Shown here in pieces: positions 39,988-58,228 of a stretch of 64,000 bases of DNA. The DNA comes from Fontisphaera persica (GTDB lineage: Bacteria; Verrucomicrobiota; Verrucomicrobiia; Limisphaerales; Fontisphaeraceae). Within the stretch, counting starts at the first letter, position 1, and each line of letters begins with the position of its first letter. Under the pieces are notes generated by a model. That model worked only from the letters and a program-made list of their open reading frames with translations. It did not search any database and was not told the origin of the DNA. The DNA lies in contig NZ_CP116615.1 in assembly GCF_024832785.1 (NCBI RefSeq), positions 1,116,001-1,180,000 on the forward strand, in the 5' to 3' direction. The position numbers were made by a program, and so were the translations under genes.

Positions 39988-42108
39988 TCAAACGTCCCTC
40001 CGCAGAATCTTCACCCGGTCCAGCAGGTTCTGATTCGTGTCGAAATACTCCAGGACCAGTTCCGCGCCGCCATCGTGGATCTTCAGGTAACCAGAAACGT
40101 TCTGGTCCTCGCATCGGAACTTAGTGTCCGCATTGATGGTGCCCCAGCCGTGATGATTTCCGCCGCCCATGGCGACGGTGTAGAACGTGATGCCATCCTT
40201 CTGCAGTCGCTCGATGCCATGCACATGACCTTGGAGCACCAGCGGAACGCCCAGGCCCACCCAGTTCCACCGGGCGTGCGCCGTACCAGTCCCCGCCGCA
40301 CTGGAGGAGTAGGCCGGATGATGAAACACGAACACCGGCCACCGCGCCGTGCTTTCGGCCAGCTTGCGCAGGACATGCTGGCCGGCGACCGAGTCTTGCA
40401 ACACCGATGCAACCGCGGTGTAGCCGCCGCCGTTGTCCGGTTGCTGGACCAGGTCATTCAGGTCATCGAAGAAGAAAAACTCCAGGTTGCCGAGTTGCGC
40501 GGAGTAGTAGGCTTTGCCGTTGTTGTAGCCGGCCACGTTCCAGTAGGCCGCGAAGCCCGCCTCGTTGCTCCCGTCATAGTCATGGTTGCCCATGCCGGCT
40601 ACGCACTTGCCGCCCCGCCCCAGGATGGTGTTCTTCAGCGTGTCATTCGCCGTGGCGAAGGAGATCGTGGCGTCGGAGGTGTCGCCGATGGCGACCACGC
40701 TCAGGGTGTCCGCATTCGCGTGCAGGATGGCGGTGTCCACGCTTGCCGCCCGAGGTGCGTCGAACCCGCCGCAACGGTCTCCCAGCGCGGCCACCTTTGC
40801 CGCACTCCGGGCCGGAATCGGATAAATGCGGAAGTCATCCAGCGTCAGTGTGTCGCCCGGAACCGAGTTGGTCAGTTCCAGCCGCAGGCGGTAGGCCAGC
40901 TCTTCCACCGACTTGGTGTAGAGCTTGAGATAGACCCGCTTGCCCAGCGTGAAGGTGTCCAGGTTGACGTATTGCTGGCTCATGGTGGCGTCCAAGAACC
41001 CGAGGTTCTGGTCCGCCAAGTGCGTCTTGACTCGCAGATAGCAGCTACCCGACCGGGCCGACACGCGGAAGCTGCACCAGTAGGGCGTGAGGCGCGACAG
41101 AGCGCCCACGATGATTTCCGCGCTGCCACCATCCGCGAAGACCATGTTGTCTTCGTTATGCGTGACGGCCACGGTGCTCCAATTCACGAAGCTTTCGCCG
41201 TGTGAAATGTGGTTGTCCGGCGCATCTTGAGTGAACACCACCGTCTTGCGCTTCGGCGCGATGCCCTTGGCATACAGGTCCGCAATCGCATCCGCCGGCA
41301 GCGCCTCGCTCCAAATCCCAACGCCGCACAACAGCCCGGCGAAGAAACCACCGGCCACCGAGGCGGACGTGTAAGCCGTGCCGATGCCCGCCTTTTGCAC
41401 CGAATCACTCCGGGGCACGGCGCTGGTCGCGACGATCGCTTCCAGTGCGCCGTTGAGATAGAGCTTCATCTGCGCCCCGTCGAAGGTGAAGACGCCGTGA
41501 TACCACTGCCCATCCACAATGTCCGACGTGCCCACGATGCGATGATTCGCGCCCGAGGCCATGTCTTCGAAATCGCCCGCCAGGCGATACGTGGACCCGT
41601 TGTTCACCTTGTTCAGGCCCAGGTGCCAGTTGGCATCCACGTTGGAGCCGTCCGCCTCGCCCCGGCCTTTCGCGACCAGCGGCACGATCGGATCAGTGGC
41701 AGGGAAACCATCCGCGCCACCCGCCGTGGCCGTGGCCACACCCGCGCCAGTCTTCTTGAACCAGCAGGAGATCGTCCACCGGGCCATGCCGAACGGATAG
41801 CTGGTGTTCTCCAGGCGGACCTGCGAAGCCACGCCATCGAACGTCGCGCAGATCGGATACTTGAAACCCGCCGGCGTCGGACCACCGAAGGTCACACCGG
41901 AGTAGCTGTAGCCGTGGTTGCCCGCCGGGCCTTGGTCTTTGATGTCAAACGCCAGCGGCAGGAACGCCTTCAGGTTGGCATCGTAGGTGCCAAGCAGCAG
42001 TTCCTCGAAAGACCCGGCGGACTCGACCCGGCTCCTCCGCCGCCACTGCGGCCAAAGCTGCCAGAACAGCCGCCGGGAAATGCGGCGATCAAGAACGGAC
42101 TTTGCCAT
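39988..42108 (-). CDS. LamG-domain / calcineurin-like metallophosphoesterase virion protein
   Basis: A 706-residue protein. Residues about 55-280 resemble a LamG/concanavalin sandwich (VRLENTSYPFGMARWTISCW, GQWYHGVFTFDGAQMKLYLN). After a second beta domain, residues about 445-700 form a metallophosphoesterase with VVAIGDTSD, CVAGMGNHDYDG, FVFHHPAYSS and LQGHVHGIERL, that is the GDxxD, GNHD, H and GHxH motifs. The usual leading DxH is not obvious. Lying between capsid-associated genes, it is likely a receptor-binding or surface-degrading virion enzyme acting on phosphoesters of the host surface. It may replace a classical tail spike. Confidence 0.8.
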   Translation of the reverse strand: MAKSVLDRRISRRLFWQLWPQWRRRSRVESAGSFEELLLGTYDANLKAFLPLAFDIKDQGPAGNHGYSYSGVTFGGPTPAGFKYPICATFDGVASQVRLENTSYPFGMARWTISCWFKKTGAGVATATAGGADGFPATDPIVPLVAKGRGEADGSNVDANWHLGLNKVNNGSTYRLAGDFEDMASGANHRIVGTSDIVDGQWYHGVFTFDGAQMKLYLNGALEAIVATSAVPRSDSVQKAGIGTAYTSASVAGGFFAGLLCGVGIWSEALPADAIADLYAKGIAPKRKTVVFTQDAPDNHISHGESFVNWSTVAVTHNEDNMVFADGGSAEIIVGALSRLTPYWCSFRVSARSGSCYLRVKTHLADQNLGFLDATMSQQYVNLDTFTLGKRVYLKLYTKSVEELAYRLRLELTNSVPGDTLTLDDFRIYPIPARSAAKVAALGDRCGGFDAPRAASVDTAILHANADTLSVVAIGDTSDATISFATANDTLKNTILGRGGKCVAGMGNHDYDGSNEAGFAAYWNVAGYNNGKAYYSAQLGNLEFFFFDDLNDLVQQPDNGGGYTAVASVLQDSVAGQHVLRKLAESTARWPVFVFHHPAYSSSAAGTGTAHARWNWVGLGVPLVLQGHVHGIERLQKDGITFYTVAMGGGNHHGWGTINADTKFRCEDQNVSGYLKIHDGGAELVLEYFDTNQNLLDRVKILRRDV

Positions 42109-42346
42109 GCGTCTTGCCTTTGCCTTGCGGTTTCACCGCCTTCTCTTCCGCCACCGGCGGCGGGACGACGGGCGGAACCACCGGCGTTTCGGCGCTCGCC
42201 TGTGCCTGCCGGTTGCCTGCCTGCGCCGCGCCCTGTTTCCCTTCTTGCGCGGCAGGCAGACCCGGCATCTCTGGCGCTGCTGGCGCAGCGTCCAACGGCA
42301 CCAGCGATCGCCGCTTCCGCCGGACGATGGGATAGAGGCCATTCAT
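42089..42346 (-). CDS. small proline-rich phage protein
   Basis: An 85-residue protein starting MNGLYPIVRRKRRSLVPLDA, with a Pro/Ala/Gln-rich middle and a basic end. It overlaps the start of the LamG-phosphoesterase gene by 20 bases and lies 21 bases after the capsid-fibre-like gene, in the same frame direction and operon. An earlier GTG at 42367 is possible. No family recognised; composition suggests a disordered accessory of the virion. Confidence 0.55.
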   Translation of the reverse strand: MNGLYPIVRRKRRSLVPLDAAPAAPEMPGLPAAQEGKQGAAQAGNRQAQASAETPVVPPVVPPPVAEEKAVKPQGKGKTHGKVRS

Positions 42347-42367
42347 ATTGGGAGGTGCGACTCGCAC

Positions 42368-42601
42368 TTAGATGCAGTTCGCCCCGACGGCGACCTGTTT
42401 CCAGTTGGTGCCATCGCTGAACGCCAGGCACGGAACCGCTCCGGTCCCGCCCGCGCTGAGGTAGATCAGCGCACCCGGATTCTTGGCCGCAGTCACACCA
42501 GCGGCCGTCAGCGCGGCCACGTTCGCAAACGTCCGGCTCTTCAGGTTGAGCTGCTCGCCGCTCCGAATCTTGGCGAAGCTCCAGGGGATTTCTTTGCCCA
42601 T
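42368..42601 (-). CDS. capsid decoration/head-fibre-like protein
   Basis: A 77-residue protein. The C-terminal half, ALIYLSAGGTGAVPCLAFSD followed by GTNWKQV, is a pattern common in small beta-rich phage head-fibre or decoration proteins placed directly after the major capsid gene. It begins 200 bases beyond the capsid gene stop, across a repeat element. Role inferred from pattern and position. Confidence 0.65.
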   Translation of the reverse strand: MGKEIPWSFAKIRSGEQLNLKSRTFANVAALTAAGVTAAKNPGALIYLSAGGTGAVPCLAFSDGTNWKQVAVGANCI

Positions 42602-42674
42602 ACGTGGTTCCTTTCATGCTTTCAGTCGCCTTGGCGACTCACTTTCAATGCCCCGCAGGGGCATAAGACAATAG

Positions 42675-42753
42675 CCCAGGGTAAGGCCGCGGGCCGCCAC
42701 CCTGGGTAGGCCATCCCAATTGATTGCCCCTCTCCCCGCTGGCGGGGAGAGGG
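42675..42753. repeat. composite two-hairpin repeat, copy 1
   Basis: Hairpin A has arms CCCAGGGT (42675-42682) and ACCCTGGG (42699-42706). After 21 bases comes hairpin B, CCCTCTCCCCGC paired with GCGGGGAGAGGG (42728-42753). It lies between the capsid gene and the next gene downstream. Two shorter hairpins, AGTCGCC/GGCGACT (42624-42639) and ATGCCCC/GGGGCAT (42648-42664), stand just beside it. Similar composite copies are at 43926-44006 and 57068-57148. Confidence 0.8.
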
Positions 42754-42801
42754 TGGCCGCAGGCCGGGTGAGGGGTGGCCCTCATTTCCATCACCCATCA
42801 A

Positions 42802-43812
42802 CTAATTATTGTGCGTCACCGCCACGATTCGCACGTTCTTGTTCTCGAACACCCGCGTCCAATTCGCGCCCATTTCCAGTTCCGCGTTGGTGGGCGAGTC
42901 GCCCGCCACGCTGGCGCTGGTGAACTTCACACCGCGCGGATGGAGGATGTAACGCCGCCGGTTGATCAGGCCCGTGTCACTGGCCAGCGCATCGCGATAC
43001 ACCTCCACGCCCTCAGTCCCGTGCCCGCCTTGCAGCGGCGTGCCGTCGAGCGGCGCGGTGCCCTTGGCGAAGGCGCCCGGCCCGAACAGGTAGGTCGTAT
43101 AAACCAGCCCATCCGTGGTCCCCGCCCGCACCGGCAGGTTGTCATCCACAACCACGCGCCGGCCTTGGAAGGTCCGAATCTGGGCCTTGCCCTCGCTGTC
43201 CGGGATGAAGTCAATCAGGTCCAGCTTCCGCAGCGCCGCCTCCGTGGCGGAGTGCATCGCAACCGCCACCAGGCGGTCGCCGCGGTCACCGAGTTTCGCG
43301 GTCGCGTCCACGAAGGTCGCGCCATTCAGGCGGGTCGCAGCGGACTGGCCAGCGACAGACTCCGAGTGAATCGCCAGCAGGTTGCCGCTCATGCTGGCAG
43401 CCGCGAAGATGCCTTTCAGGCACGACACCACCAGGCCCTCGTCAGTGCGCGCCCAGTATTCCGCGACCAGGTCCACGATGGCCTGCATCGGATCATCGCC
43501 CGAAATGACCTTGGCGAGATGGTTGACGGACCACGCTTGCGCATCGTTGTGAATGCGGGCGATGTCCTTGTCGGCAGTGATCTTGTTGACCGTGAGCGAC
43601 GCCGAATCGCTCAGGAGTTGACGGGTAGCGGTCAGGTCCTTCCAGAAGGGCATTTCCACCGTGCGCCCGCCGCCAGCGGCCAACTCATCAAACACTGGCG
43701 AGTGTTCGATGATGCCGCACTTCCCGAACGCGCTCAGTTCTGCGGTCCGCTCGATGGCATACCGCTCGAACTCCGTCGGGATGATGATGTCTGCAACAGC
43801 CGTTTTCGCCAT
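42802..43812 (-). CDS. phage major capsid protein
   Basis: A 336-residue coat protein. Typical segments are the N-terminal ADIIIPTEFERYAIERTAEL, WKDLTATRQLLSDSASLTVN, then ISGDDPMQAIVDLVAEYWAR and a C-terminal NTRVFENKNVRIVAV-like end (actual ANWTRVFENKNVRIVAVTHN). This matches HK97-fold coat proteins that follow a scaffold gene and a DUF4055 portal. It lies downstream of the scaffold and is flanked on both sides by a two-hairpin repeat. It appears intact. Confidence 0.9.
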   Translation of the reverse strand: MAKTAVADIIIPTEFERYAIERTAELSAFGKCGIIEHSPVFDELAAGGGRTVEMPFWKDLTATRQLLSDSASLTVNKITADKDIARIHNDAQAWSVNHLAKVISGDDPMQAIVDLVAEYWARTDEGLVVSCLKGIFAAASMSGNLLAIHSESVAGQSAATRLNGATFVDATAKLGDRGDRLVAVAMHSATEAALRKLDLIDFIPDSEGKAQIRTFQGRRVVVDDNLPVRAGTTDGLVYTTYLFGPGAFAKGTAPLDGTPLQGGHGTEGVEVYRDALASDTGLINRRRYILHPRGVKFTSASVAGDSPTNAELEMGANWTRVFENKNVRIVAVTHNN

Positions 43813-43925
43813 AATTCAATCTCTCTTTCCGTTTGTAGTCCCGGCTTCAGCCGGTCCCGGTTTCAAAACTTGGCGCAGCGCAGCGAAGCCCTGACTGAGC
43901 ACCCTGTAAGGGTGCCGGACCATAG

Positions 43926-44006
43926 CCCAGGGTAAGCACGCCAGTGCGCCACCCTGGGACAGCCGGCCCAAACAATTTCCTCCCTCTCCCCCACCGGGGG
44001 AGAGGG
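43926..44006. repeat. composite two-hairpin repeat, copy 2
   Basis: Hairpin A arms CCCAGGGT (43926-43933) and ACCCTGGG (43951-43958); hairpin B CCCTCTCCCCC/GGGGGAGAGGG (43982-44006); 23 bases between the two. It stands between the scaffold stop and the capsid start, so the capsid gene is bracketed by copies 1 and 2. Confidence 0.8.
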
Positions 44007-44064
44007 CCGGGGTGAGGGGGCTGCCGTCCATCGCCACAATCGCCTCGCTCGCCATAGCCACTCG

Positions 44065-44862
44065 TTACGCCGCCGCCTTGAGCCGGGCCGCCAGGCCCGG
44101 ATCACTCTTTTGCAGCCGCATTTGCTCCGTGAGATTCCAGCTTTCCTTGCGGAACGGATTTCTCACGAACCGATTCCCGGCCCCACCGGAGCCGGTGCCG
44201 TATGGGGAAGTGGCACCGCCACCACCGCCACCGGCATTGGATTCAAACAGGTGCGGAGCTTCCGACACTTGCATGTCAATCCACTCCGCCAACGACAGAG
44301 GCGTCAGGCCATCCTTGCCCACACGGGCAGTCTGGCCGTCAGCCTCCAACGCCTGGGGAACACCGTTCACCAGGCGGAAAGTGTTTCGCGCTCGCGACGT
44401 AATGTCGGGAATCGCGCTCGCACGCAGACCGCGCTTGGTCGCCTCAGTCACCACCGCTTGGTCAATCTGAATCGCGGTGAGGCGCGCATTGAGCGCATCG
44501 CGCTCGCCGGTCACGCCAGCGAGCTTCTTGTCCAACTCACCCCTGACCGCGCGCACCCGCGCCTCGATCAACTTCTCCACTTCGCCCGCCGTGGTGGCCG
44601 CCCGCAGGGCCTGGGCCTCTTCGAGCTTGCGCTTCTCATCCGCCAGCTTGCGGACCTCTTCAGGGTCAATCCCCTCGAAGCGCTGCTTCAGTTCATCCCG
44701 CTCCTTCATCAGTGCGACATTGGTGGCGCGGAACTCTTCGAGCTTCGCCTTGTCCACCGCGCCTTCGACATCCAGGTGCCAGGCGCCATCGCGTTCGACG
44801 TAGAGGTTGACGAGTTCCGCCGGAACCTCGTCTTTCGATTTCAGTTTGAACTTCAGTGCCAT
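44065..44862 (-). CDS. phage scaffolding-like protein (DUF6651-like)
   Basis: A 265-residue protein. The ATG at 44862 (MALKFKLKSKDEVPAELVNL) follows GGAGG about 12 bases upstream; earlier in-frame starts to 44976 are less likely. The N-terminal segment with VEGAVDKAKLEEFRATNVAL, a long charged coiled coil (about 40-150), a poly-Gly hinge and a basic C-terminus ending in LQKSDPGLAARLKAAA are typical of the capsid-assembly scaffold family found between portal and major capsid genes. It guides procapsid assembly and is not expected in the final head. Confidence 0.8.
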   Translation of the reverse strand: MALKFKLKSKDEVPAELVNLYVERDGAWHLDVEGAVDKAKLEEFRATNVALMKERDELKQRFEGIDPEEVRKLADEKRKLEEAQALRAATTAGEVEKLIEARVRAVRGELDKKLAGVTGERDALNARLTAIQIDQAVVTEATKRGLRASAIPDITSRARNTFRLVNGVPQALEADGQTARVGKDGLTPLSLAEWIDMQVSEAPHLFESNAGGGGGGATSPYGTGSGGAGNRFVRNPFRKESWNLTEQMRLQKSDPGLAARLKAAA

Positions 44863-45788
44863 AATTTTCGTCGCCTCCATTTCTACACCCTGTTTTGCGG
44901 AATCTTGATGCACCCGAACGGCACCGCGCTTTTCTCGCTGCGCCATGCTGCGGCACGTCGCACGACCTTGCGCCACGCTGAACGATAATTTTTCACAAAC
45001 CGCTTGACGGGGTTGGCTGTGGTGCAGGTTCCGGCTTTCCGATTGCGATCAACCGGACCTCCTCTTCGTTGGTTCGCCCTTCTGGGAGCACTTCGCCACG
45101 GCGAAAGATGTCCAACATGGAATCCCGGCTCAGTGCGCCGTTCTGCCACGCCTGGACAACGGCCACGATCTCGTTGGCCGACAGCCCTCGCGTGCTGTAA
45201 TCGGTGTTCAACTCGATGACGACCTGCTCGTTGCTCACGTCATCAGGCATCACTTCGGTGGAGTTCCACCAATGCGCCCAGCGCAGAACGTGCGTCAGCG
45301 ACATGCCGACGCTGCTCGCCAGTGCGCCCAGGATGCTGTTCTCCCCGCTTTGCTTGAGTTCGATGGCCTCAGCCGCTTCACCAACACGCTTCTGCGTTTC
45401 CAGCAACCGCGCCCCAAGAATCGCCATGAGGCGTTCATCCCGATCCATCGCCCGCTCGAAAGTCGTCAAACCCTGGCCCGTGTATTCCAGGAACCCGGCA
45501 GTCGCGCCCGGCGTGTCTGTCACCCAGGCCGTGCTGGAGCCAATTCGCAACGTGGCCGCCTTGTCAAAACCACTGACCCACGCCGTTGGCAGCGCCGTGA
45601 AGTGCATCCCGTGCCGGTAATCAGCGTGCAGGCGGTAGTGGTCCAGGTTGACCGCGATGACATCGCCGAGCGGCAACCGATCCACATCCGGGAGGGAATG
45701 GCTCGCGCCATGGAATACGAACGGAATCAGCGGCAGCGGTTTCCCCAACCGCAGTGGCGTGCGCGTCTCGACCAATTCCCACTCCCTT

Positions 45789-45820
45789 TGCCTGCCTGCC
45801 GTAGGCCCGGCGTAGGCAGG
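45789..45820. repeat. palindromic repeat inside the portal gene
   Basis: Arms CCTGCCTGC..GTAGGC and GTAGGCAGG form an imperfect hairpin around CCGGC. It is followed by a change of reading frame in the portal gene. It belongs to a different family from the CCCTCTCCCC hairpin 60 bases away. Confidence 0.6.
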
Positions 45821-45878
45821 TCCCTTCTGCCTCTCCGATCCAGCTTCGGACGCCAGATTTCCACCACGCACCGCCACT

Positions 45879-45902
45879 CCCTCGCCCCCATCGGGGAGAG
45901 GG
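45879..45902. repeat. CCCTCTCCCC-type hairpin inside the portal gene
   Basis: CCCTCGCCCC and GGGGAGAGGG form the stem, followed by GCCGGGGTGAGGGG. This is hairpin B of the composite element without hairpin A. In one frame it encodes LTPALSP. It lies directly beside the TGA that ends the N-terminal portal fragment. Confidence 0.7.
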
Positions 45903-46481
45903 CCGGGGTGAGGGGCTTTCTCAATCGCACCACCCGGATTTGCTCCCCGCGCTCCCGTCAGCCCCTTCAGCCTTTTCGGCCAGCGCCAGCATCGTCAGCA
46001 AATTCCGGCCTTGGATTCGTTCGACCCGCCAGTTCAAGATGTTCTCCGCCGTGTAAAGCGACACATACACGCGGTTCTCTCTCTCGCTTTCCCAATCAAT
46101 CAGCGTGCCGGCACGACCCACCGCGATGACTTCCCTTGCGACATTCCGAGCGTAACTGGCAAAGGACATCCCCAGCATGTCGGCATCGTTGATGAATGCG
46201 CGCATGGCTTTGCCCAGACTGTTCGCACCCTCTGGCACTTTGATGAACGGCGGACGCCGGAACAACAGGCCGAGGTAACCATCCGCCGTTCGCGCCGTGG
46301 CATTGAAGAACGAAGCACGCGCCCGGTAGGCGGCGTACTCCTCATCGGTTTGCCCTTCGAGGAGCGGCAGATATTTCTCGCCGGCGGACTTCACGGAGTC
46401 CTCTCCGGCGATGACATCGCGGGCTCGCAGCCAGGCTGGCAGGCTCGCGTCGTATTCAGGATGCGTCGTGTTCACTGACAT

Positions 46482-49400
46482 GGCGCCAGCGTAACACCCC
46501 TTTTGCGCGACCTCGACGCCCGCCTCGACACGCCTTGCCCCATGCTGCGGGATGCTGCGTGACCTCGCACCACGCTGCGCGATGCACGCGCCGAAACCAC
46601 TTGACGCCCCCTCGCTGCGCCGATGCGGACGCCCGCGTCCGGTGGCCCCTTCAGTGCCAGTGCTGGCGCAACGGCGCTTCCGGGGACCGCCGTCCGCTCG
46701 TTGTGAAACCCAACCCGCCTTGGCCGTCGAACGCGCCCCCGCTGGCGCGACCACGAACGCGCCTTCCGATTCCAACGCTTCGTGAACCTTGGACGCCCTT
46801 CCGCTGGCGCGACGACCAACGCCCCTTTCGATTCCAACGTCCGCGGAGCACCCAGCGCGCCAGTCCCCCTGTAACCCCGGCCTGTCACGCTGGCTGCTTC
46901 CGCTCGCGCCAATTCGGACGCCCTCCCGCTGGCGCGACTTCGGATGCCCCTCTCCAATTCCAACGCGCCTTGAACCTCCAACGCCCCACGCTTCGCGCAT
47001 TCGGACGCCCGCTCCCGGCGGCCCCGTCGCGCCAGTGCTTCGCAACGGCGCTCCCGGGGCTCGCCGGTCGCTCTCGTGGTAATTCCAACCTCGTGGGTGT
47101 TCGGACGCCCCCCGATGCGGCTTCGCGGCGCAACCGAAGGCTCGCTGTGTAGGTGCTCATTTGGCCGGTGCGGCTCGCACTCCGCCCGCCAACACAGCTC
47201 ACCAGAATGGCGCTTGCGACGACGCCAGCGCCAGCGCCGCTCCGCCGCCGGCAGCCCTTGCGTCCGGATGCTGGCGCAACCGGACTCCAGGGCTTGCCGT
47301 CTGGCTCCCGGTGGTCCCCTCCAGGCCAGATGCTCCGCAACTGGCCTTCCGGGGAACCACCGTCCGCCGGCGACGATGTCAGTCTGCGCCTGCTCTGCCT
47401 CGACGCCACCGGCGGACCTCCACTTCGTTGCACTCCGTTGCGGACCGCCTTTCGCAGCCCGCAGAATGGTTGCTTGGACTCGACCCCGGCCGGCAAGCAT
47501 GGCGGCTTTTGCTCTCCTGTCGCTTTGCCGACGGCCGCTAAGTCGTGCCTGGCGGCACCGCAAAACACGCCACCCTTGCTCGGCCCCCCACGGCGCCAGA
47601 CTCCCGCAGTTTCCTCGCCTCCACTCCACTCCGCTTCACTCCGCGACGCATCAAAAGCATGCGACGCTCCATTCCGCTGCGTTGCGTTCCGGCTCCGAAA
47701 CCGACGGGAGACTGGCGGGAACCCCTGGCTCGCAAGCACGGCGGTCACACTCGCAGCCGCATTTGACGGTGCCCTGTCACCCCTCACCGACAAATTGCTG
47801 GCTGCTCTTATGTGTGCCCGCCGACCTTGCTTCGCCCCCGAAGTCAGCCTGCCCTATGCGCAAAACCCGGCCCCGGCATTCCCTGTCACCCTGCGAGCCG
47901 GTTCCGGGCATTGCGCACAAGGCAGGACAGCGCGACCCCCGCGAACCCGACGGACACGCCCCCTCAAACGCCGGGTGGCTTGGCTCCCCTCAATCGCCGG
48001 CCAGGCTCACACACGCTCAATCGCCGCACGGGCTAACCCCGGCCGCCGCATCACCGCTTCTTGCTTTGGAAACGCTCAGGATCGCCGGTGCGGCTCGCAC
48101 TTCGCTGGCCTACGCCGCGTCGCGGTCATGCGCCGGCCCCCAATGTCAGTCTGCCCTACGCGCAAAACCCAGCCCTGGCTTTCCCTTGTGGCCGACTGCT
48201 AAGTCCCCCTCTAAGCCTGTGCTGGGTATTGCGCGCAAGGCAGAAGGCGCGACCCCCGCGAGCCCTTTGGACGTTGGATTCCCCCGGCTCGTGAGCGTGC
48301 ATCTGGCAAGGAAACATGCGAAAGACACCAGAGGCATTTTCCTCGCCAGCCGCACCCTCACTTCGCCCCCAAAGTTAGTCTGGCCCTTGGCGGTCGCCGT
48401 TTCGCGCTGGGCCTAACGGCTCGCCCCTGGTGGCCGACTGCTAAGTCCCCTTCGAGCCACGGCCCGGCGCTACACTCTACCCGCCAAGCGCCAGAACACC
48501 GCGGCCCCCGCGCCCCGTTGGAATGCGCCCCCGCAAGTTCGACCGCGCTCCGTGAATGGCTGGCATGAAGCACCGGCAAACGCTACGCTTCTCGTTCCTT
48601 TTGGCCGGTGCGGCACGCACTTCACTGCGAGGCTGGGCGTTTGCCTTGCTCAATCCCTGCCGATACACAACACATATTGTGCGTTCGCTCCGTTCGTTCC
48701 TCTCTCCGCAAGTTATTTCCTTAACGCAGGCCACCCCCCGTGAACGGGTCCCCCCTGCTGGAAATGAACTTCGCACAATATGGCGTTGTGTTCAGCAGGG
48801 TTGCCTCGCCTGTCACGCTGCGTGCTTTCCCCACCCTCGCGCTCGGTGGGGGCACGGTGGGCCGTGCGGCACGCACCGCGCCAGGCGGTCAAGGCATGCT
48901 TCACGCCAGCCATTCACTTCGCTGGTTTGGAGAAGTCAGGCGGGGGCGCAGGGGACACAGACAATATCAGCTCACTTCGTTCGAGGTCATACGCGCCATC
49001 CCTCGCGTGCTGCTGGCCGCCCACGAACGCCAGTCCGGCACGGACCCCGATGGCCAGCAACACGCCCCCCACCCACCCCCCAGGAATGCTCGCCCCCCCT
49101 CCACTCCCCAGGGGGGGCTCGCAATTTGTTAACCCCTGATCCCCTTGAAATCGCTCAATCGCCGCTCGGGCTCAGACAAAGTCAGCTCGCTGACGCTCGG
49201 GGAATCGAACGCTCAAACGGCGCTGGCCTTGGATGAAGTTAGCTCACTTCGTTCGATAGTTTACGACCCACCCACCCCCCTTGGATGCTCGCCCCCCCTC
49301 CACAAACCCAGGGGGGGGCTCGCAGTTCTCACCCCTTAGCCCCTCTTAAAATCGCTCAATCGCCGCTAGGCTAGGAAAAGTTAGCTCGCTGACGCTCGGG

Positions 49401-49555
49401 GAATTGGACGCTCAAGCGCCGCTGGGCTTGGGGGAGTCAGTTCGCTGGCGCTCAAAGTGGTTTGATTCGCTCAGGCGGCGCTGGCCTTGGATGATTGGAG
49501 CCACACAAGAAGCCAGGCTTGACTTTGCATCACTCTGATGCAAGCTGATGCGCGT
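46482..49555. repeat. about 3 kb of non-coding degenerate repeats
   Basis: No open frame here looks like a gene: all long frames overlap on both strands and have biased Arg/Ala/Pro content. Instead several diverged motifs recur. GCAACGGC..CCGGGG units occur near 46668, 47042, 47276 and 47335. GCCGGTGCGGCTCGCAC units occur near 47164, 48084, 48604 and 48870. CTGCCCTAYGCGCAAAACCC occurs near 47853 and 48155, and ATTGCGCRCAAGGCAG units near 47910 and 48217. CTCGCTGACGCTCGGGGAAT occurs near 49183 and 49385, and CTCACTTCGTTCG near 48970 and 49243. The stretch separates the portal gene from the restriction cassette. Confidence 0.7.
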
Positions 49556-49756
49556 ATGGCAGACGACAAAGATACAACGCCCAACGGCCAAGACAAGCGT
49601 GCTACCCGAATCACGGTGACGCTTCCCCCTGATAATTATGAACTTCTGGTGCGCGTGGCCAGAAACAAGAAAGTCTCGGCGTCATGGGTTGTGCGCGATG
49701 CGGTGGAAAAATACCTCGCTGCCGACATGCCACTCTTCACGCAGAACCCCACCTGA
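49556..49756 (+). CDS. ribbon-helix-helix DNA-binding protein (CopG/Arc-like)
   Basis: A 66-residue protein. The segment RITVTLPPDNYELLVRVARN then VSASWVVRDAVEKYL fits a ribbon-helix-helix domain (one strand, two helices) that dimerises on DNA. The ATG at 49556 is preferred over one at 49538, which would add six residues. It lies three bases before the methyltransferase gene and on the same strand, so it may act as the control protein of the restriction-modification cassette. That role is inferred from position. Confidence 0.7.
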   Translation: MADDKDTTPNGQDKRATRITVTLPPDNYELLVRVARNKKVSASWVVRDAVEKYLAADMPLFTQNPT

Positions 49757-49759
49757 TTT

Positions 49760-50935
49760 ATGTCCGAAGCCACACCCAACCAATCCCCGCCTGCCAAGTT
49801 GTTTCACTCCACCAAGCACGGGGAGATTTACTTGGGAGATTCGCTGGCGGTCTTCCGGGATCAGATCAAACCCGGCTCGGTTGATCTCATCATGACGAGC
49901 CCCCCGTTTGGTCTCGTTCGCAAAAAGGACTACGGCAACGTGGACTCCGAGGACTATGTCGAATGGTTCAAGCCGTTCGCCGCTGCTTTTCGCTCCGCTT
50001 TAAAACCGTCTGGTTCCCTTGTCATAGACATAGGCGGCGCATGGATTCCCGGTCAACCCACACGCAGCCTCTACCATTATGAGTTGCTGATTATGCTCTG
50101 CCGCGAGTTCAAGTTTCACCTTGCACAGGAGTTTTTCTGGTGGAATCCGGCTCGGCTTCCCACTCCGGCCGAATGGGTCACCGTGCGGCGCATTCGCGTC
50201 AAGGACGCCATCAATTGCATCTGGTGGCTTTCGCCCACCCCGTGGCCAAAAGCCAGCAACCGGCGCGTCCTGCAGCCTTATTCCGAGAGCATGAAAGTCC
50301 TTCTGGAGAAAGGGTACAAGCCCATGATGCGGCCATCCGGCCACGACATCTCAGACCGCTTTGGCACTGATAACGGCGCGGCGATCCCGCCGAACCTCAT
50401 TGCCCTTGCCCACACCGAAAGCAACTCGGCCTATATCCGCTATTGCCGTGACCACGGCCTAACGCCACATCCGGCACGCTTCCCAACCGAGATTCCCGAG
50501 TTCTTCATACGCATGTTGACCGATGTGGGCGACTTGGTTGTTGATCCCTTCAGCGGCAGCTGCGCCACCGGCGAGGCAGCGGAGAAAACCCGGCGCAAGT
50601 GGATTTGCGCCGACATGGTCGAGGACTACCTCAAAGGGGCTCTTGGCCGCTTTCAGCCCCGCAAGGTTGAGTCGTACTCCGCGCCGAACCCGCAAAGACC
50701 GAATGGGGACACCGCCTACCGCGCTTTCAAACCCGGCCTGATGTGGAATGGCGTTGCTGACGACGAACCCCTGGCGCCGGACGGCGGAGCGAAACGGCAG
50801 TCGCCCTCAAAGCGCCGCGTCGCCGAGCCGCGTGTCAACTACAGTTCCGAACCGTCAGCCAAACAGATGATGCTACTCGACAAGGCCCAGTCACCCAAGC
50901 GCCGCGCTACTGCCGCGTCGAAATCAGCCGCATAA
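49760..50935 (+). CDS. DNA methyltransferase, beta-class, probably N4-cytosine type
   Basis: A 391-residue modification enzyme. The catalytic motif IV appears first, MTSPPFG (about residues 45-51); SPPF is usual for N4-cytosine enzymes. The S-adenosylmethionine motif I comes last, VDPFSGSCATGEAAE (about 262-276). This order defines the beta class. It lies in a rightward three-gene cassette between RHH regulator and endonuclease (7 bases apart), opposite to all viral genes. It should protect DNA from the adjacent nuclease and possibly from host restriction. Target sequence unknown. Confidence 0.9.
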   Translation: MSEATPNQSPPAKLFHSTKHGEIYLGDSLAVFRDQIKPGSVDLIMTSPPFGLVRKKDYGNVDSEDYVEWFKPFAAAFRSALKPSGSLVIDIGGAWIPGQPTRSLYHYELLIMLCREFKFHLAQEFFWWNPARLPTPAEWVTVRRIRVKDAINCIWWLSPTPWPKASNRRVLQPYSESMKVLLEKGYKPMMRPSGHDISDRFGTDNGAAIPPNLIALAHTESNSAYIRYCRDHGLTPHPARFPTEIPEFFIRMLTDVGDLVVDPFSGSCATGEAAEKTRRKWICADMVEDYLKGALGRFQPRKVESYSAPNPQRPNGDTAYRAFKPGLMWNGVADDEPLAPDGGAKRQSPSKRRVAEPRVNYSSEPSAKQMMLLDKAQSPKRRATAASKSAA

Positions 50936-50942
50936 CCCAACT

Positions 50943-52355
50943 ATGACACCAGACGCGACCCAGGCCGCACCATCCAGGCCCAAATGGAAGAATGCAAGCG
51001 ACCTGCCCTTTGGCAGCGAGTTTTCGCCCTCACAGGTTCAGCTTTCCGTTTTGCTTGAGTTCGCTAAAAAGCATGGCGGCGACTGGAAAGCCTTCGAAGC
51101 AGCGGTGAAGTCGAGGTATTTCGCTCAGAACCCCACCAGCGACTACAACAAGGGCAAACTCGCCAACAACACGAAGCTCGGCATGGTCGCTTACGGCATC
51201 ATCGATCGGGATGCAAAACTGACCGAGTTTGGCGAGAAACTCTATCGTCTTCGCGATGATTCCGCCAAACTCCACGCCGAGCTTGCCCGCCACATCCTGC
51301 TGAATTTGCACGGCATGACGCTGGTCCAGTGCGTGCAGGACATCCAAGCTGCTGGGGAAACGGTAGAACTCATAAAGCTTCGCGAGTGGCTCGACGCGCG
51401 CGGCATCCATTTCCCTCGGGGCGGAAAGCATCCAAGCATTATGCGGCTCTGGCTCGAAAAGGCTGGCGTGTTCACCAGCGGATGGAATGTCGACCTTGCG
51501 CGGTTGAAGGATGTTGCCGGAGCGAGCAGTGAGGAATTGGAGATTCTCGCCGCACTGAGCATTGAGCAGAGGGCGTATCTCAAGACGCTCGCGAACATGG
51601 CCGGTCCAGGCCCGTTTGCCTCGAACGATGTCGAAAAGCTCGCGACCGCTACCTACGGCGTTCACTTCAACGAGAAGGCGCTGCCCAAGCAGGTCCTTTA
51701 CCCATTGGAGAAAGCCGGTTTCGTCACCCTCGAACGCGGCACCAAGCAAGCCGGGCGCGGAGCCAAGCCTTTCTTGGTTTGCCCCACGGAGAAGCTCCAG
51801 AAGGAAATTCTCACACCGTTACTGGAGCAGTTGGAGAAACAAACTGCTCCCAACCTGCGGTTTCTGCTTCGCAGGTCCATGCACGAGATCCTAAAGGGCG
51901 TGACCGACAAGGACAAGCACACACGCGGCCTCGCCTTGGAGGCCCTGGCCTTCAAGCTCATGCGGTTGCTCGACATGGATTACGTGGCCACCCGCTTGCG
52001 CGGCTCCGCCACCGGCGGCGCTGAAGTGGACTTGGTTTTTCAGTCGGCCCGCTTGGTATTCTCCCGCTGGCAGGTCCAGTGCAAGAACACGCCCCGCGTC
52101 AGCCTAGAGGATGTCGCCAAGGAAGTCGGGCTCATCCACCTACTGAAAAGCAACGTCATCGTGGTCGTAAGCACCGGCGAAATCGGTCCTGCCGCTCGTG
52201 GCTACGCCAACAAGGTCATGGGCGACACGAATCTTTGCATAATCCTAGTCAACGGCGACGACCTCAAAGCCATCGCAGCCAGCCCCGCCGCTATTGTTGA
52301 TGTTTTCAACCGAGAAGCGGCTCATGCCATGCGCCTAAAGAAACTCGAGATCTAG
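50943..52355 (+). CDS. restriction endonuclease, PD-(D/E)xK (Mrr-like) C-terminal domain
   Basis: A 470-residue protein coupled to the methyltransferase. Residues 1-300 have repeated winged-helix-like segments (KLTEFGEKLYRLRDD; QVLYPLEKAGFVTLERG), probably for target recognition. The C-terminal 130 residues are a nuclease: LALEALAFKLMRLLDMDYV, then GGAEVDLVF (about 358-366) and RWQVQCKN (about 375-382), giving the D/E-x-K catalytic pattern, then an IVVVSTGEI core. With the methyltransferase it forms a complete type II-like system. It converges with terminase, 32 bases apart. Confidence 0.85.
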   Translation: MTPDATQAAPSRPKWKNASDLPFGSEFSPSQVQLSVLLEFAKKHGGDWKAFEAAVKSRYFAQNPTSDYNKGKLANNTKLGMVAYGIIDRDAKLTEFGEKLYRLRDDSAKLHAELARHILLNLHGMTLVQCVQDIQAAGETVELIKLREWLDARGIHFPRGGKHPSIMRLWLEKAGVFTSGWNVDLARLKDVAGASSEELEILAALSIEQRAYLKTLANMAGPGPFASNDVEKLATATYGVHFNEKALPKQVLYPLEKAGFVTLERGTKQAGRGAKPFLVCPTEKLQKEILTPLLEQLEKQTAPNLRFLLRRSMHEILKGVTDKDKHTRGLALEALAFKLMRLLDMDYVATRLRGSATGGAEVDLVFQSARLVFSRWQVQCKNTPRVSLEDVAKEVGLIHLLKSNVIVVVSTGEIGPAARGYANKVMGDTNLCIILVNGDDLKAIAASPAAIVDVFNREAAHAMRLKKLEI

Positions 52356-52387
52356 CGATGGTTGGCTAGCGGCAATTGACGGGGGAA

Positions 52388-53872
52388 TTAGAGGCCGCAG
52401 AGCTTGCGGATTGTGATTTGGCGGCCCTTACTCGCCACCGCATAGCGCAGCGCATCGGCGCAATCGTCACCCCCGTTGCCATCCTCGTCCGCGTCCACCT
52501 TCAGCACATCCTCGGGCCGATTCGGATCATGCTGGAGCGCCGGCATGGTTTCCACCAGCCGACCGCAACGCCGGTGAATGAACAGGCTCGGCGCAATGCC
52601 CGCCTCGATGTCCCCCAGGCGGTGCAACAGCTCCGCCCACCCGTTCACCCGGTCCGTGTTCGCCACCCGCAGCGTGATGCCCAGCCGGGCATACTGCGCG
52701 GCGACGGTCGAACCGTCGCTCTGCTTGCTGAACACGTCAGCACCCGCCACGAAGCGCGCGAGGACGCGCGCTGGTTGATGGTTGAGAGTTGATGGTTGAT
52801 GGCACCGCGCCCCCTCACCCCGGCCCTCTCCCCCGGTGGGGGCGAGGGAGACGCCGTGCCGCGCCAGCATCGCTTTGATCGCCGCCGCGTGCCGCTGCGG
52901 CAGCCACAGCCGTTCCGCATGTTCATCTACGATGAACACGTTGCCGTCAGCATCCCGGCACCCCAGCAGGCAGACCGTGTAGTGCGTGAACCCGTAATCC
53001 AGCGCCGCAAACCACTCGACCGCCCGGCGGTCGTCGAAGTCCTCGACCACATGCACGTCACGCCGGAAGGTGGTGAAGAACTGACCGGCGGCAATGTCCC
53101 AGTTGCCGTCCAGCCACGCCTGCTTCTGCCACCCGGACAGGCCCTCCAGAATCTTCCGATACTCCGGGTTGTTGTATTGGTTGTCATCCACCCGCGCCGG
53201 CACGAAGATAGTTGAGGGTTGAGAGTTGATAGTTGATGGACCGGAGCGTTGGAGAGCGAGGTATGGTTCAATGAAGAGTTTCCGATACCAGGCATGACCA
53301 ATCCCGCCCGGATTCGACGTGGAGTAAATCCGAGGGCGCCAGTCCGGCTTGCTGGTCCGGCAGCACGTCGCAATGTCCGAGTGCTTCCGGTGCGTCAGAG
53401 TGGTGGCCTCTTCGATGCCGATCACGTCGTATTCCAGCCCCAGGTAGGCATCAATGTCCTTTTCAGCTTGGAAGTGGCCCGCCACGATCCTCGAGCCATT
53501 GCGAAACGTCAGCAGGCCACGGTGGGCGGAAAACTCATGCTTCAGCCGACCGAACAGCTTTTGCCTGAGATCCTCGAAATGCTCCACGTTGGCTTTGCCA
53601 ACTTTCCGCAGCAGCAGGCATTTCAGCCCCGGCACCCGCTGGCAGTCGTCCACCCCCATCTGCGCCAAGAGCCAGTGGCTCTTGCCGCCGCCCCTGGCCC
53701 CGCCGTAGCCGACTGCCGTCGGCCCGGCGGCCAGGTCGCACGCTCGCGCTGCCGCGCTCGCCGCCAACTGCCGCGGCTGCAAATACACCCGCGCCGCCAC
53801 GAAGTTGCGCATCTGATCTTCCGGGCACCCTGCCCGCAGGGCCCCCTCCAGGAATTGCTCACGCTCGATCAT
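52388..53872 (-). CDS. phage terminase large subunit (with in-frame repeat insertions)
   Basis: A 494-residue packaging motor and nuclease. The ATG at 53872 follows AAGGAGG and overlaps the small-subunit stop by four bases; the open frame upstream (to 54172) is not used. The Walker A variant GGARGGGKS is at 57-65 and the Walker B VIGIEEAT near 142. The nuclease domain has AALDYGFTHYTVCL and ends with DGNGGDDCADALRYAV. Two in-frame inserts translate repeats: STINSQPSTI (DNA about 53209-53240) and APTGGEGRGEGARCHQPSTL (DNA about 52777-52850). The frame stays open, so function may persist. Confidence 0.9.
   Translation of the reverse strand: MIEREQFLEGALRAGCPEDQMRNFVAARVYLQPRQLAASAAARACDLAAGPTAVGYGGARGGGKSHWLLAQMGVDDCQRVPGLKCLLLRKVGKANVEHFEDLRQKLFGRLKHEFSAHRGLLTFRNGSRIVAGHFQAEKDIDAYLGLEYDVIGIEEATTLTHRKHSDIATCCRTSKPDWRPRIYSTSNPGGIGHAWYRKLFIEPYLALQRSGPSTINSQPSTIFVPARVDDNQYNNPEYRKILEGLSGWQKQAWLDGNWDIAAGQFFTTFRRDVHVVEDFDDRRAVEWFAALDYGFTHYTVCLLGCRDADGNVFIVDEHAERLWLPQRHAAAIKAMLARHGVSLAPTGGEGRGEGARCHQPSTLNHQPARVLARFVAGADVFSKQSDGSTVAAQYARLGITLRVANTDRVNGWAELLHRLGDIEAGIAPSLFIHRRCGRLVETMPALQHDPNRPEDVLKVDADEDGNGGDDCADALRYAVASKGRQITIRKLCGL
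52777..52850. repeat. tandem of TTGATGGTTGA-type and CCCTCTCCCC-type repeats within terminase
   Basis: Short direct units GGTTGATGGTTGAGAGTTGA at about 52777-52797 are followed by the hairpin CCCTCTCCCCC/GGGGGCGAGGG at 52824-52848. A second run of the TTGAGAGTTGATAGTTGATG type is at about 53213-53240. Both are in frame with the terminase gene. Confidence 0.7.
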
Positions 53873-54480
53873 CGTTGTTCCTCCTTCGGTGTTTCGCTGA
53901 TCACTTCCGCCTCGATGACTCTCGGCGGCGGTTCCGAACCCCGGCCATAGACTTTCTTGATGGCCACTTCCCATTCCACGTCCACACTCAACGTGACCTC
54001 GCCGGTCACTTCCGTGTGGTCCGTCGGCATCCCGCTGGCCAGCCGCCCCAGCTTGCTGGCCAGTTCCAGCATCCGGGCGATCCCTTCCAGGGACCCGCAC
54101 CGGGCCGCGTTCGCTCGCCACCGTCTCAGGGCCTCGCGTCCTGCTTCCAGCAGTTCGCTCCGCACCTTCCATTCCTCTTCACGGTGTTCGCTCTGTCGCG
54201 TCAGCCACTCCGCCGCTTTGCTCCGCAACGCGGCTTCCGTGGCCTGCCGCTCCACCAGCGCCAGGTGTGCGGCGTGCGCCTGCACTCTGGCCGGCCAGTC
54301 AAACTTGGCGGACCATCTTCCCAGCATCGTCACACTCTTATGCAACTGCTGTCCAACCGTCGCCAGGGACCGTTCCGGCCCCAGGCTCAGATACAAGGTG
54401 AACGCAGCGAAAGCCTTGTCGCTCTCTCTGGGCTGTTGTTCAAACGCCAGCACGTTTCGTCTGGTTTCCATCTGTTTCAT
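53869..54480 (-). CDS. phage terminase small subunit-like protein
   Basis: A 203-residue DNA-recognition subunit of the packaging motor. The ATG at 54480 (MKQMETRRNVLAFEQQPRES) follows AAGGAAGG and is preferred over 54585. ESDKAFAAFTLYLSLGPERS then TVGQQLHKSVTMLGRWSAKF gives a helix-turn-helix, followed by a long helical oligomerisation region. It is immediately upstream of and overlaps the large subunit by ATGA, the normal arrangement. Sequence conservation in this family is low; the call relies on HTH plus position. Confidence 0.8.
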   Translation of the reverse strand: MKQMETRRNVLAFEQQPRESDKAFAAFTLYLSLGPERSLATVGQQLHKSVTMLGRWSAKFDWPARVQAHAAHLALVERQATEAALRSKAAEWLTRQSEHREEEWKVRSELLEAGREALRRWRANAARCGSLEGIARMLELASKLGRLASGMPTDHTEVTGEVTLSVDVEWEVAIKKVYGRGSEPPPRVIEAEVISETPKEEQR

Positions 54481-54527
54481 GTTCCTTCCTTCCTTTCCAG
54501 CCACCGAGGGCAACGCCCTGGCAGTGA

Positions 54528-54566
54528 GGGAAGGGCAACCCGACCCAAGGAGGGTTGCTCCTTCCC
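54528..54566. repeat. long inverted repeat between replication and packaging genes
   Basis: Arms GGGAAGGGCAACCC (54528-54541) and GGGTTGCTCCTTCCC (54552-54566) pair over 14 bases with one bulged T around a 10-base loop. It lies in the gap between the RepA-like ATPase stop (54623) and the small terminase start (54480). No U tract follows on the minus strand, so a simple intrinsic terminator is unlikely; an RNA-processing or protein-binding site, or another mobile repeat, are options. Confidence 0.6.
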
Positions 54567-54622
54567 AACTGCCTTGCTGGTGCATTTATCTATTAAGGGT
54601 TGTTGCAATTTTTGCATTTTCC

Positions 54623-55669
54623 TCATTTCTGAACCCAATACACTCCGGCAGAAGACCTTACGAGTCCGGCTTCCATCAGGCGGTTCAGGTAGTTGGAAAC
54701 TGACCTTTTCCCCATGTTCAGGGCACTTGCCGCATCCTTAACGATGGTGCCGAAACTCTTCGGGTCACTGGTTAGGACCGCATCCATGAACTCCTTGTCG
54801 GTGCAGACCTTGTTCCGGCCTTGCGGCCGGCGCAGGGCCGCAGGATTCAGGTCGCTGGCGACCTTCATCAGGGGGAACTCCCAGGCAACCACGAACTCGG
54901 GCACCTGGGGCAGGTTGCGCAGGATGCTGGTGACAGTGAAGCAGTCCGGTTCCTCGTGGGGGGTGAGGATCATGATGCTGTCCGGGTCACGCGCCCAGGC
55001 GCCTGCCCCGCTCATCCGGTCAATCGCCAGCTTGGCGGTGCTGTCGCCTTTGGCGAAGTGGTGGGCCACCACCAGCGCGGCCCCAGTCTTCTGGGCCAGG
55101 GCCTCCAGTTCGTTCATCAGGTCGGCAATCTCGCCGTTGGCGTTTTCATCCCGGTTCCCCAGCACCTTGTAGGCGGGATCCAGGATGATCAGCCCGAAAT
55201 CGAACTTGGCGAGATGCTCTTCCAGCTTTGGCCGGAGCAGGGTCAGGTCCGCGTTGCGGCCCCGTAGGTTCCAGAGCGCGAGCGCCTGCCGGCCGAGGTG
55301 GCCGTCCGCCAGGACTTCCGGCCGGGCCGCGCACAGCGCGTTCAGCCGTTGCGCCAGCGCCCACGGCTGCAGCTCGAAGTTGATATAGACCACCGCCATC
55401 TTGGCGCAGGGCCGGCCCCACCACGGCTGACCGCTGGCGACCGACAGCGCCAGGTCGAGCAGACACCAGCTCTTGTTGCTCTTGCTGGTCCCGCCCAGGA
55501 GCATCTTGCACCCACGGTGCAGGATGCCTTCGATCACTTGCGGCGGCGGCGAGGGCGGGTTGGCCGCGAAGTCCTCAAAGAAGCAGATGTCCGGCAGCGG
55601 CAGCGGGATGGCGCCCAGGTCCACCGCCGGGTCAACCTGTTCCGAGGGATCATACGTCTTGATTTCCAT
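54623..55669 (-). CDS. RepA-like AAA ATPase (phage replication)
   Basis: A 348-residue RecA-fold ATPase. Walker A GGTSKSNKS is at 59-67 and Walker B GLIILDPAYKV near 155. GAALVVAHHFAKGD is the next core motif. The last 70 residues form a winged helix (FGTIVKDAASALNMGKRSVS). Proteins of this layout act as replicative helicases or helicase loaders of plasmids and phages. It stands 18 bases after the primase-like gene in the same direction, so the pair probably forms a primase-helicase replication unit. Confidence 0.85.
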   Translation of the reverse strand: MEIKTYDPSEQVDPAVDLGAIPLPLPDICFFEDFAANPPSPPPQVIEGILHRGCKMLLGGTSKSNKSWCLLDLALSVASGQPWWGRPCAKMAVVYINFELQPWALAQRLNALCAARPEVLADGHLGRQALALWNLRGRNADLTLLRPKLEEHLAKFDFGLIILDPAYKVLGNRDENANGEIADLMNELEALAQKTGAALVVAHHFAKGDSTAKLAIDRMSGAGAWARDPDSIMILTPHEEPDCFTVTSILRNLPQVPEFVVAWEFPLMKVASDLNPAALRRPQGRNKVCTDKEFMDAVLTSDPKSFGTIVKDAASALNMGKRSVSNYLNRLMEAGLVRSSAGVYWVQK

Positions 55670-55687
55670 GCTATTAGTGGCCCTCCG

Positions 55688-56713
55688 CTAGGAGTTCAGC
55701 CAGACAATCCGTTGCAACCGTCCATCCCGATACGCCCCTGGCACGCGCACCGGCTGGGAGTAAGTGAAAAGTTTCGGGTCACACCCGAACACGGTCAGCA
55801 CCGCTTTCAGGTGCGCCTCAGTCCGCGCATTGCGCGGCGCATCAAACCACCCGTGCAGGCTCTTGCCTGCCGTATCAATGATGGCGTGCAGGTTGAACCG
55901 CAGTCGCCGGTTCAGGTAGGCGAACACCGCGCCGACTTCATCCTTGGCCAGCGTGTCGGACTCGACCACCAGGAACCGCGTGCCGTCGCAATTCGCATTG
56001 CTCCGGCTGTAGCTGCCCGGCTTGAACGATGACCCGCAGGTGAAGTTCCCCATCGCCGGCCCGATCTGGTACCACTCGGCCACGGGCCGGAAGTGTGTTC
56101 GATGCTCCGGCTTGCCGGAGCTGAACACATCCCCGATCCAGACATGGCAATGCGCCGGCCACAACCGCAGCCAGGTGCGAAATTGGTCTTCCGCATCCCG
56201 CTCGCAGACCCTCAGCGGAGAGTCCGCCATGATGTCGCCATAGGTCCACCGGAACGCCTCGAACATCTCGGCTCGATACCGCTCCGCATTCACCCGCACC
56301 GTTTCGAGGACCACCTTCTCCACCGGCGCCGCCGACAAATCCCCTCGCCCCCATCGGGGGAGAGGGCCAGGGTGAGGGGGCGTGCCGATCATCATCGCCT
56401 CCCTGCCTAGAACCGTCCCATCCGTCCGCAGCAAATCCCCGTTCCGCAGCACCCGCCCGCCCGGCAGCGTGATCTGCCACGGGCTGGCCCCGATCTCCCG
56501 GCGCAACCGCCGGTTCGCTTCGCTCACCGCGGCGATGCACGAGGAGTGGAAGCAGAACACCGTCGGCGCACCGTCCACGTTCACCCGGCAATCCTTCTTT
56601 CCGTTTCGGTGCGTGTGCATCGCCTCACCAGGACAACGGCAAAACCCGCTGACCTCGTCTTGCCAGTCAACGGCGCCGAGGAGGCGCTGGGCGATTTGCC
56701 TCGGATCATTCAT
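55688..56713 (-). CDS. primase-like protein with zinc finger
   Basis: A 341-residue protein. Cys/His at the N-terminus (FCRCPGEAMHTH ... CFHSSC) form a CHC2-like zinc-binding site at about residues 24-59. The C-terminal half (FLVVESDTLAKDEVGAVFAYL, LHAIIDTAGKSLHGWFD, RVPGAYRDGRLQRIVWL) resembles the primase region of phage and plasmid replication proteins. The segment TPPHPGPLPRWGRG at about 111-124 is the translation of a CCCTCTCCCC-type hairpin (56342-56366) inserted in frame at a linker. It precedes the RepA-like ATPase gene. Confidence 0.8.
   Translation of the reverse strand: MNDPRQIAQRLLGAVDWQDEVSGFCRCPGEAMHTHRNGKKDCRVNVDGAPTVFCFHSSCIAAVSEANRRLRREIGASPWQITLPGGRVLRNGDLLRTDGTVLGREAMMIGTPPHPGPLPRWGRGDLSAAPVEKVVLETVRVNAERYRAEMFEAFRWTYGDIMADSPLRVCERDAEDQFRTWLRLWPAHCHVWIGDVFSSGKPEHRTHFRPVAEWYQIGPAMGNFTCGSSFKPGSYSRSNANCDGTRFLVVESDTLAKDEVGAVFAYLNRRLRFNLHAIIDTAGKSLHGWFDAPRNARTEAHLKAVLTVFGCDPKLFTYSQPVRVPGAYRDGRLQRIVWLNS
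56342..56366. repeat. CCCTCTCCCC-type hairpin within the primase-like gene
   Basis: CCCTCGCCCCC and GGGGGAGAGGG around ATC, followed by GCCAGGGTGAGGGGG. Same family as hairpin B of the composite repeat. In frame with the coding sequence, giving HPGPLPRWGRG. Confidence 0.75.
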
Positions 56714-56737
56714 TCGTCCTATCCCGTCCTATTCATC

Positions 56738-56770
56738 CCATTTTTCGTGTCTTTCGTGTGTTTCGTGGTC
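56738..56770. repeat. CGTGTCTTTCGTGTGTTTCGTGG repeat between small genes
   Basis: A short sequence with reiterated CGTGT/TTTCGTG units in the 62-base gap before the primase-like gene. From memory this string occurs dispersed in many environmental bacterial genomes. It does not form a stable hairpin by eye. Confidence 0.45.
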
Positions 56771-56775
56771 ACCCC

Positions 56776-57006: not shown

Positions 57007-57067
57007 GTTCTCTCACAGCCGAGGTAGCGAGCCACTTTCGCGCCCTGAAAGGGCAGGCAGACAATAG

Positions 57068-57148: not shown

Positions 57149-57203
57149 TTGGGGTGAGGGGGTATTCCATCTGTGTCCATCCGTGTTCATCCGTGATTTC
57201 TTC

Positions 57204-58207: not shown

Positions 58208-58228
58208 GGAATGATGTCCTCGTACGGT

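Follow-up and report, generated by a model that had tools for sequence, protein, structure and literature searches.

A dispersed palindromic repeat read in frame, and a second palindrome, within a prophage portal gene spread over three frames in a Verrucomicrobia-type bacterium

Opitutus terrae (O. terrae) is a verrucomicrobium. In a published account (PMC3733652), REPs are described inside many genes, where they are translated and sometimes occur twice per gene. Two families, GTAG and CGTC, are named there, with GTAG units being most numerous in O. terrae and CGTC units in Rickettsia conorii, and both uvrA genes of O. terrae carry double REP inserts (PMC3733652). Rickettsia palindromic elements (RPE), whose length is given as 105–146 bp in a second account (PMC2229807), are palindromes with open frames that stand in frame in conserved genes, the gmk product remaining active.

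Here, we describe a prophage portal gene that is spread over three reading frames and contains two palindromes, which we term REP1 and PAL2. Like the GTAG and CGTC units, REP1 is a short dispersed palindrome that lies within genes and is translated. However, its targets here include prophage portal and terminase genes, and its head lacks the GTAG/CGTC tag (either tetramer was present in 1/30 own-genome copies, with 10 nt around the head being scored). With RPEs, REP1 shares in-frame insertion in conserved genes, namely the portal and terminase of the window and two homologous portals (L032 and L039), but it differs in size, measuring about 39 nt as against 105–146 bp. The genome contains two PF01797 matches (RAYT, Y1 transposase), with no REP1 match in the roughly 3.2 kb surrounding each, and an Rfam search of window positions 42000–58500 at the gathering threshold returned no match. 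REP1 behaves like an intragenic REP, but is placed in neither the GTAG nor the CGTC family; in-frame REPs inside genes have already been published, and the portal case adds another instance. Among the literature matches listed, no title dealt with repeats inside phage portals, which is a statement on those titles and no claim that such papers are absent. The SH-Ab15497 portal (8xb5) belongs to the same family; the portal described here differs from it by its repeat-derived residues in variable turns and its three-frame split.

The window is the whole 64,000-nt stretch of DNA that was analysed, part of a 4.73-Mb genome on a single contig (completeness 97.16). On its minus strand, positions 46481–44993 hold a prophage portal gene, the host being a Verrucomicrobia-type bacterium: DUF4055 and phrog_145 profiles match across most of the protein, with two frame changes in place of a single continuous open frame. 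The three reading frames and the portal identity, first noticed in a sequence-only reading of the window, were confirmed, and both palindromes sit where that reading had put them. The 5′ piece (frame 1; 45950–46481, minus), running from MSVNTTHPEYD... to about ...KAEGADG, matches phrog_145 (1.3e-48, profile 8–189); its frame stays open as far as a stop at 45921, and aligned homologues cover residues 1 to 169–183 of it. The middle piece (frame 2; 45827–45946, ends approximate, minus) was recovered by frameshift-aware alignment and comprises EQIRVVRLRK, REP1 and WRCVVEIWRPKLDRRG. The 3′ piece (frame 3; 44993–45788, minus) extends from REWELVETRTPLRLGKPLP... to the stop, matches DUF4055 (4.5e-37) and phrog_145 (218–474), and shares 58–77% identity with its long matches. 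The major head protein (phrog_247) and the scaffold (phrog_206) are encoded next to the portal, with the terminase farther on, behind a methyltransferase gene and the gene beside it; on these grounds, we assign the region to a prophage head module.

The DNA methyltransferase and its 470-aa neighbour, which has no PHROG match, occupy 49760–52355 on the plus strand, between the portal and the terminase of the minus-strand module. The interval from the portal to the methyltransferase region (46482–49500; about 3 kb) holds no convincing genes and contains degenerate direct repeats. Eighteen families of direct repeats were found in 46400–49700, many of low identity, with a 199-nt period in 1.8 copies at 49068–49431.

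Homologues of the portal were found at 35 loci on genome contigs, 28 of which bear Verrucomicrobia-type titles (12 subdivision 3, 3 Limisphaerales), five the title 'bacterium' only, one Akkermansia and one Planctomycetota; viral contigs added seven loci, for a total of 42 fetched. A frameshift-aware alignment compared the window DNA with 33 intact portals from these loci. Nine loci (L031, L054, L056, L057, L059, L061, L063, L064 and L065) were left out for want of a single 440–600 aa ORF matching both portal pieces; several of them are themselves cut or rearranged, with L065 being in two frames, and L031, L054, L057, L059 and L061 were read by eye. Four further relatives were aligned, three of them from one same-family genome. 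Not counted as new were L148, which is identical to L052, and L147, L155 and L156, whose linkers are as in L053, L058 and L047, while the fragments L146 and L151 lack these linkers. In G007, a genome from the order of the window, a portal is identical to the L052 portal.

This alignment placed the first frame change at 45947–45959 (minus), within a variable linker devoid of palindromes (linker A), for 32/33 intact homologues and 4/4 further relatives. REP1, a CCCTCTCCCC element at 45877–45915 (minus), occupies a second variable linker (linker B) and starts 32–44 nt past this point in the gene sense when measured against the same 32 homologues; the 33rd, L047, needed just one shift, placed at 45923 and thus 8 nt upstream of REP1. 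The element is read in frame as PLTPALSPMGARE, with the conserved EQIRVVRL upstream and WRCVVEIWRPKLD downstream. Given that conserved portal residues flank REP1 on both sides in its own frame, REP1 is either an in-frame addition or an in-frame replacement of linker residues, which leaves the first frame change as a small lesion apart from it, in linker A. On aligning the window to uninterrupted portals, as the sequence-only reading had proposed, REP1 was rejected as the cause of the first frame change.

The second frame change falls at 45786–45852, an interval that includes PAL2, in 32/33 homologues, and at 45819–45840 with the four further relatives; the linker around it (linker C) is too variable for placement at base level. 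In 32/33 alignments, this change is of the +2/−1 class. Hairpins and frame changes had been said to coincide, which was not confirmed for the first change and holds for the second insofar as PAL2 lies inside its interval. The residues in question are missing from homologous portals, as the sequence-only reading expected of insertions. Its central proposal, however, that two palindrome insertions each caused one frame change, is highly improbable: the window portal has both palindromes, same-family relatives have neither, and one of 33 alignments (L047) does put a shift 8 nt from REP1, but REP1 shares its frame with conserved residues to either side and the first change lies elsewhere in the other 32. 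Programmed frameshifting that would join the three pieces was likewise rejected and deserves next to no weight, for although three open pieces stand in order, the 33 homologues have one frame and the shifts fall in non-conserved linkers.

REP1 is about 39 nt long, and its portal copy is free of stops in 5/6 frames; its fold is unexceptional for its composition (z −0.5 versus shuffles). Within the window, CCCTCTCCCC has nine matches versus 0.23 expected by chance. A 21-nt REP1 pattern (≤1 mismatch) gave 68 matches in the genome versus one in the reversed control, and REP1 matches were present in 70/97 genomes of the order, some with >100, with the reversed control being nearly as high or as high as the REP1 count in G003, G010, G043 and G090. 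As a short palindrome with many dispersed copies, REP1 answers to the general description of a REP. Using a 22-nt pattern (≤1 mismatch), 5/24 own-genome matches lay within 21 kb of this prophage (binomial 7e-8), a stretch picked after the positions had been seen.

Several further copies lie inside genes or open frames. The gene for the terminase large subunit (52391–53872, minus; phrog_2, 6.2e-26) harbours REP1 at 52811–52850 (plus), in frame as ...LAPTGGEGRGEGA..., with a QPSTLNHQ repeat after it; at this site, the homologues L051 and L070 are shorter, whereas L047 is longer with other residues. The terminase gene has two in-frame repeat-derived stretches in all, namely STINSQPST at 53219–53236 and REP1 plus QPSTLNHQ at 52782–52850. 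Another copy (56342–56379, minus) is in frame as PPHPGPLPRWGRG within an ORF at 55688–56713, which has no Pfam or PHROG match and whose gene status rests on length and codon pattern. Copies at 43998 and 57140 are outside the recognised genes of the window, and elsewhere in the genome an open frame of 1006 aa contains a copy ahead of its Eco57I-type methylase domains.

Scanning the 42 homologue loci returned five REP1 matches in four loci, two within the portal, in its conserved span or its tail (L032, L039), and three outside (L036, L039, L050). In the L032 portal, REP1 is in frame in a loop (loop 1) that is short in the same-MAG siblings L033 and L034. In the L039 portal, it is in frame near the C-terminus, where the tail is no longer than that of relatives; here, REP1 may have replaced residues instead of adding them. 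By eye, loop 1 of L039 contains a further REP-like stretch. Overall, REP1 is read in three frames, as LTPALSP, PHPGPLP and SPRPSP. The earlier suggestion that the repeats move is borne out for the REP1 family by its spread over 70/97 genomes and its other sites in the L032 and L039 portals, but not for full PAL2, which has two genome copies, both in portals.

PAL2 is a 30-nt imperfect palindrome (CCTGCC) in linker C (45791–45820, minus) that folds better than shuffles (z −3.0). Two 6-nt AAGGGA direct repeats, seen in the sequence at 45821–45826 (left, minus) and 45783–45788 (right, minus), surround it, their starts being 38 nt apart. Allowing ≤3 mismatches, the full element occurs once more in the genome; of 196 genomes from the order (≤2 mismatches), two match, its own and G071 with one match; and viral contigs, searched with no mismatch allowed, gave 0 matches. 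Full PAL2 thus does not have the many dispersed copies of a REP and was rejected as a dispersed repeat. A 16-nt half of it (≤1 mismatch) speaks against that verdict, with 13 genome matches versus 0 in the control, and a shorter motif related to PAL2 may be repeated in the genome.

The other copy of PAL2 lies in a second, truncated and decayed portal copy of the same genome (L011; G000:C1:2643174–2646195, about 1501–2100), whose REP1 and PAL2 sit where those of the window portal do, and which also has stops of its own and a large deletion. L011 starts at REP1 and is preceded by a different repeat; this start suggests recombination at REP1. When 14 prophage proteins or pieces of the window were compared with the 20 kb around L011, the C-terminal part of the portal was the sole match. 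L011 reads VVEIWRPKLDRRSR-RDLPTPGQRQAGK-RECELVETRI in one frame across PAL2, so a PAL2 insert need not break the frame. The two copies differ in the A-run beside PAL2, at the right AAGGGA, where the extra base of L011 could be a secondary change.

Comparing the two copies over a 245-nt downstream segment revealed 7/82, 6/82 and 28/81 differences at codon positions 1, 2 and 3, respectively (chi-square p 1e-5). With moderate confidence, given that the segments possibly have separate histories, this bias suggests that, from the time the two copies diverged, purifying selection has acted on a portal of this lineage; if the inserts are older than that split, the gene worked with them. Divergence amounts to 12/166 in the insert-bearing segment and 41/245 downstream (Fisher p 0.004). 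Since the insert segment is the less diverged, the histories of the two segments may differ, and the selection is perhaps older than the inserts.

These data bear on the possibility that PAL2 broke the gene on entry as a 38-nt addition, with the first frame change being an unrelated indel and REP1 harmless. Such a course is possible, if doubtful. The 38-nt spacing of the AAGGGA starts leaves 2 modulo 3, which fits the +2/−1 class of the second change, and PAL2 is absent from same-family relatives. However, the sole other PAL2 copy, in L011, has one frame on both sides, and the codon-position bias downstream indicates a gene under selection, subject to the caveat about segment histories.

Relatives and a structure model provide the context for both inserts. 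The portals L143–L145, from one same-family genome, have neither palindrome in linkers B and C, and L143 and L144 read GEQIRVLRL...RCVVDIWRPK where the window counterparts EQIRVVRL and WRCVVEIWRP flank REP1. Of the proposed two independent insertions, the additions are supported, both being absent from these linkers of L143–L145, while the accompanying frame break is unsupported for REP1 and doubtful for PAL2. Several relatives have linkers that equal or exceed those of the window in length, so the ancestral length cannot be read from them. For the intact homologue L052, a structure was predicted with modest confidence (mean pLDDT 61.8, pTM 0.58), its best solved match being the portal of phage SH-Ab15497, 8xb5 (E 1.2e-22); in this model, loop 1 (residues 82–87) and linkers A (173–182), B (195–201) and C (212–223) are turns between secondary-structure elements.

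Taken together, we favour, at a probability of roughly one half, a history in which palindromic inserts entered portal turns in frame and small indels broke the frame afterwards. The central beta region of the portal would have three turns of very variable length, formed by linkers A, B and C. REP1 (39 nt) would have entered linker B as an in-frame loop extension bearable for a working portal, and PAL2, a low-copy element, would have extended the loop of linker C, likewise in frame. The gene would later have been broken by two small indels, of which the first hit linker A at a distance from the palindromes and the other fell at or near PAL2. This history draws on direct observations—the frame of REP1, the position of the first frame change apart from it, the dispersal of REP1 and its in-frame occurrence in the L032 and L039 portals—as well as on the open frame of L011 across PAL2, the codon-position bias, the lack of inserts in L143–L145 and the placement of the L052 linkers in turns. 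We infer both an in-frame entry of PAL2 and genuine indels that postdate the inserts. Counting against it are that the one-frame reading of PAL2 comes from one decayed copy, the L047 shift near REP1, the possibly separate segment histories, the unextended tail of L039, the equal or longer linkers of relatives and the modest confidence of the L052 model.

That the indels are real can be questioned: both frame changes might be sequencing or consensus errors at short one-base runs in a hairpin-rich stretch, leaving an intact gene with two in-frame inserts. We regard this as unlikely. Both changes are of the one-base class and lie beside short G- or A-runs, the two portal copies show single-base differences in runs, and 9/15 random 20-kb stretches showed same-strand ORF overlaps that may in part be frameshifts. 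In contrast, those ORFs of a genome of the same genus (G001) that share >55% identity with the window, 17 in number, all match it in a single frame (covering 12 distinct window places and about 17.8 kb by hand sum, after weaker side matches had been filtered out), and, when set against homologues, the prophage genes for terminase, scaffold and major head protein show no break. Mean ORF length was 308–782 aa in 14 of the 15 random stretches. Random sequencing error is thus an unlikely source of the frame changes; the error base rate does leave room for a local sequence problem in this hairpin-rich stretch beside short runs. One of the sampled stretches, L125 (G000:C1:200001–220000), is AT-rich (GC 0.449, with 0.58–0.63 in the others) and has few coding-like ORFs.

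Repeat insertion as the cause of a frame break was tempting; it proved mostly unsupported and is corrected here. Under the favoured history of in-frame inserts followed by small indels, palindromic repeats appear to be acceptable as loop residues in this phage family. A broader and quite tentative idea is that prophages of the order might be a recurrent landing ground for stop-poor repeats—REP1, QPSTLNHQ/STINSQ and perhaps PAL2—which would enter in frame, in any reading frame, and supply loop residues in variable turns of head and packaging proteins. Repeats within genes might then serve as recombination sites that truncate genes, as with the start of L011 at REP1 and a joint in L057. In the latter locus (DBMR01000115.1, 4527–5840), an open frame fuses a terminase segment to the C-terminal part of a portal at a STINSQ-type repeat; this joint may be a real deletion or an assembly chimera, and linker C of L057 contains a repeat other than REP1, QPSTLNHQ. 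If repeats are indeed accepted as loop residues, insertions into phage structural genes could be counted in portal turns, and repeat tolerance would be open to ordinary assembly assays. For annotation, PLTPALSP, PHPGPLP and SPRPSP within proteins of this group should be treated with caution, as they can derive from repeats. A further split was seen in L152 (G038:C5:163400–165300): with no REP1 match to the pattern used, its portal, of the same family, lies in two frames, divided near residue 318.
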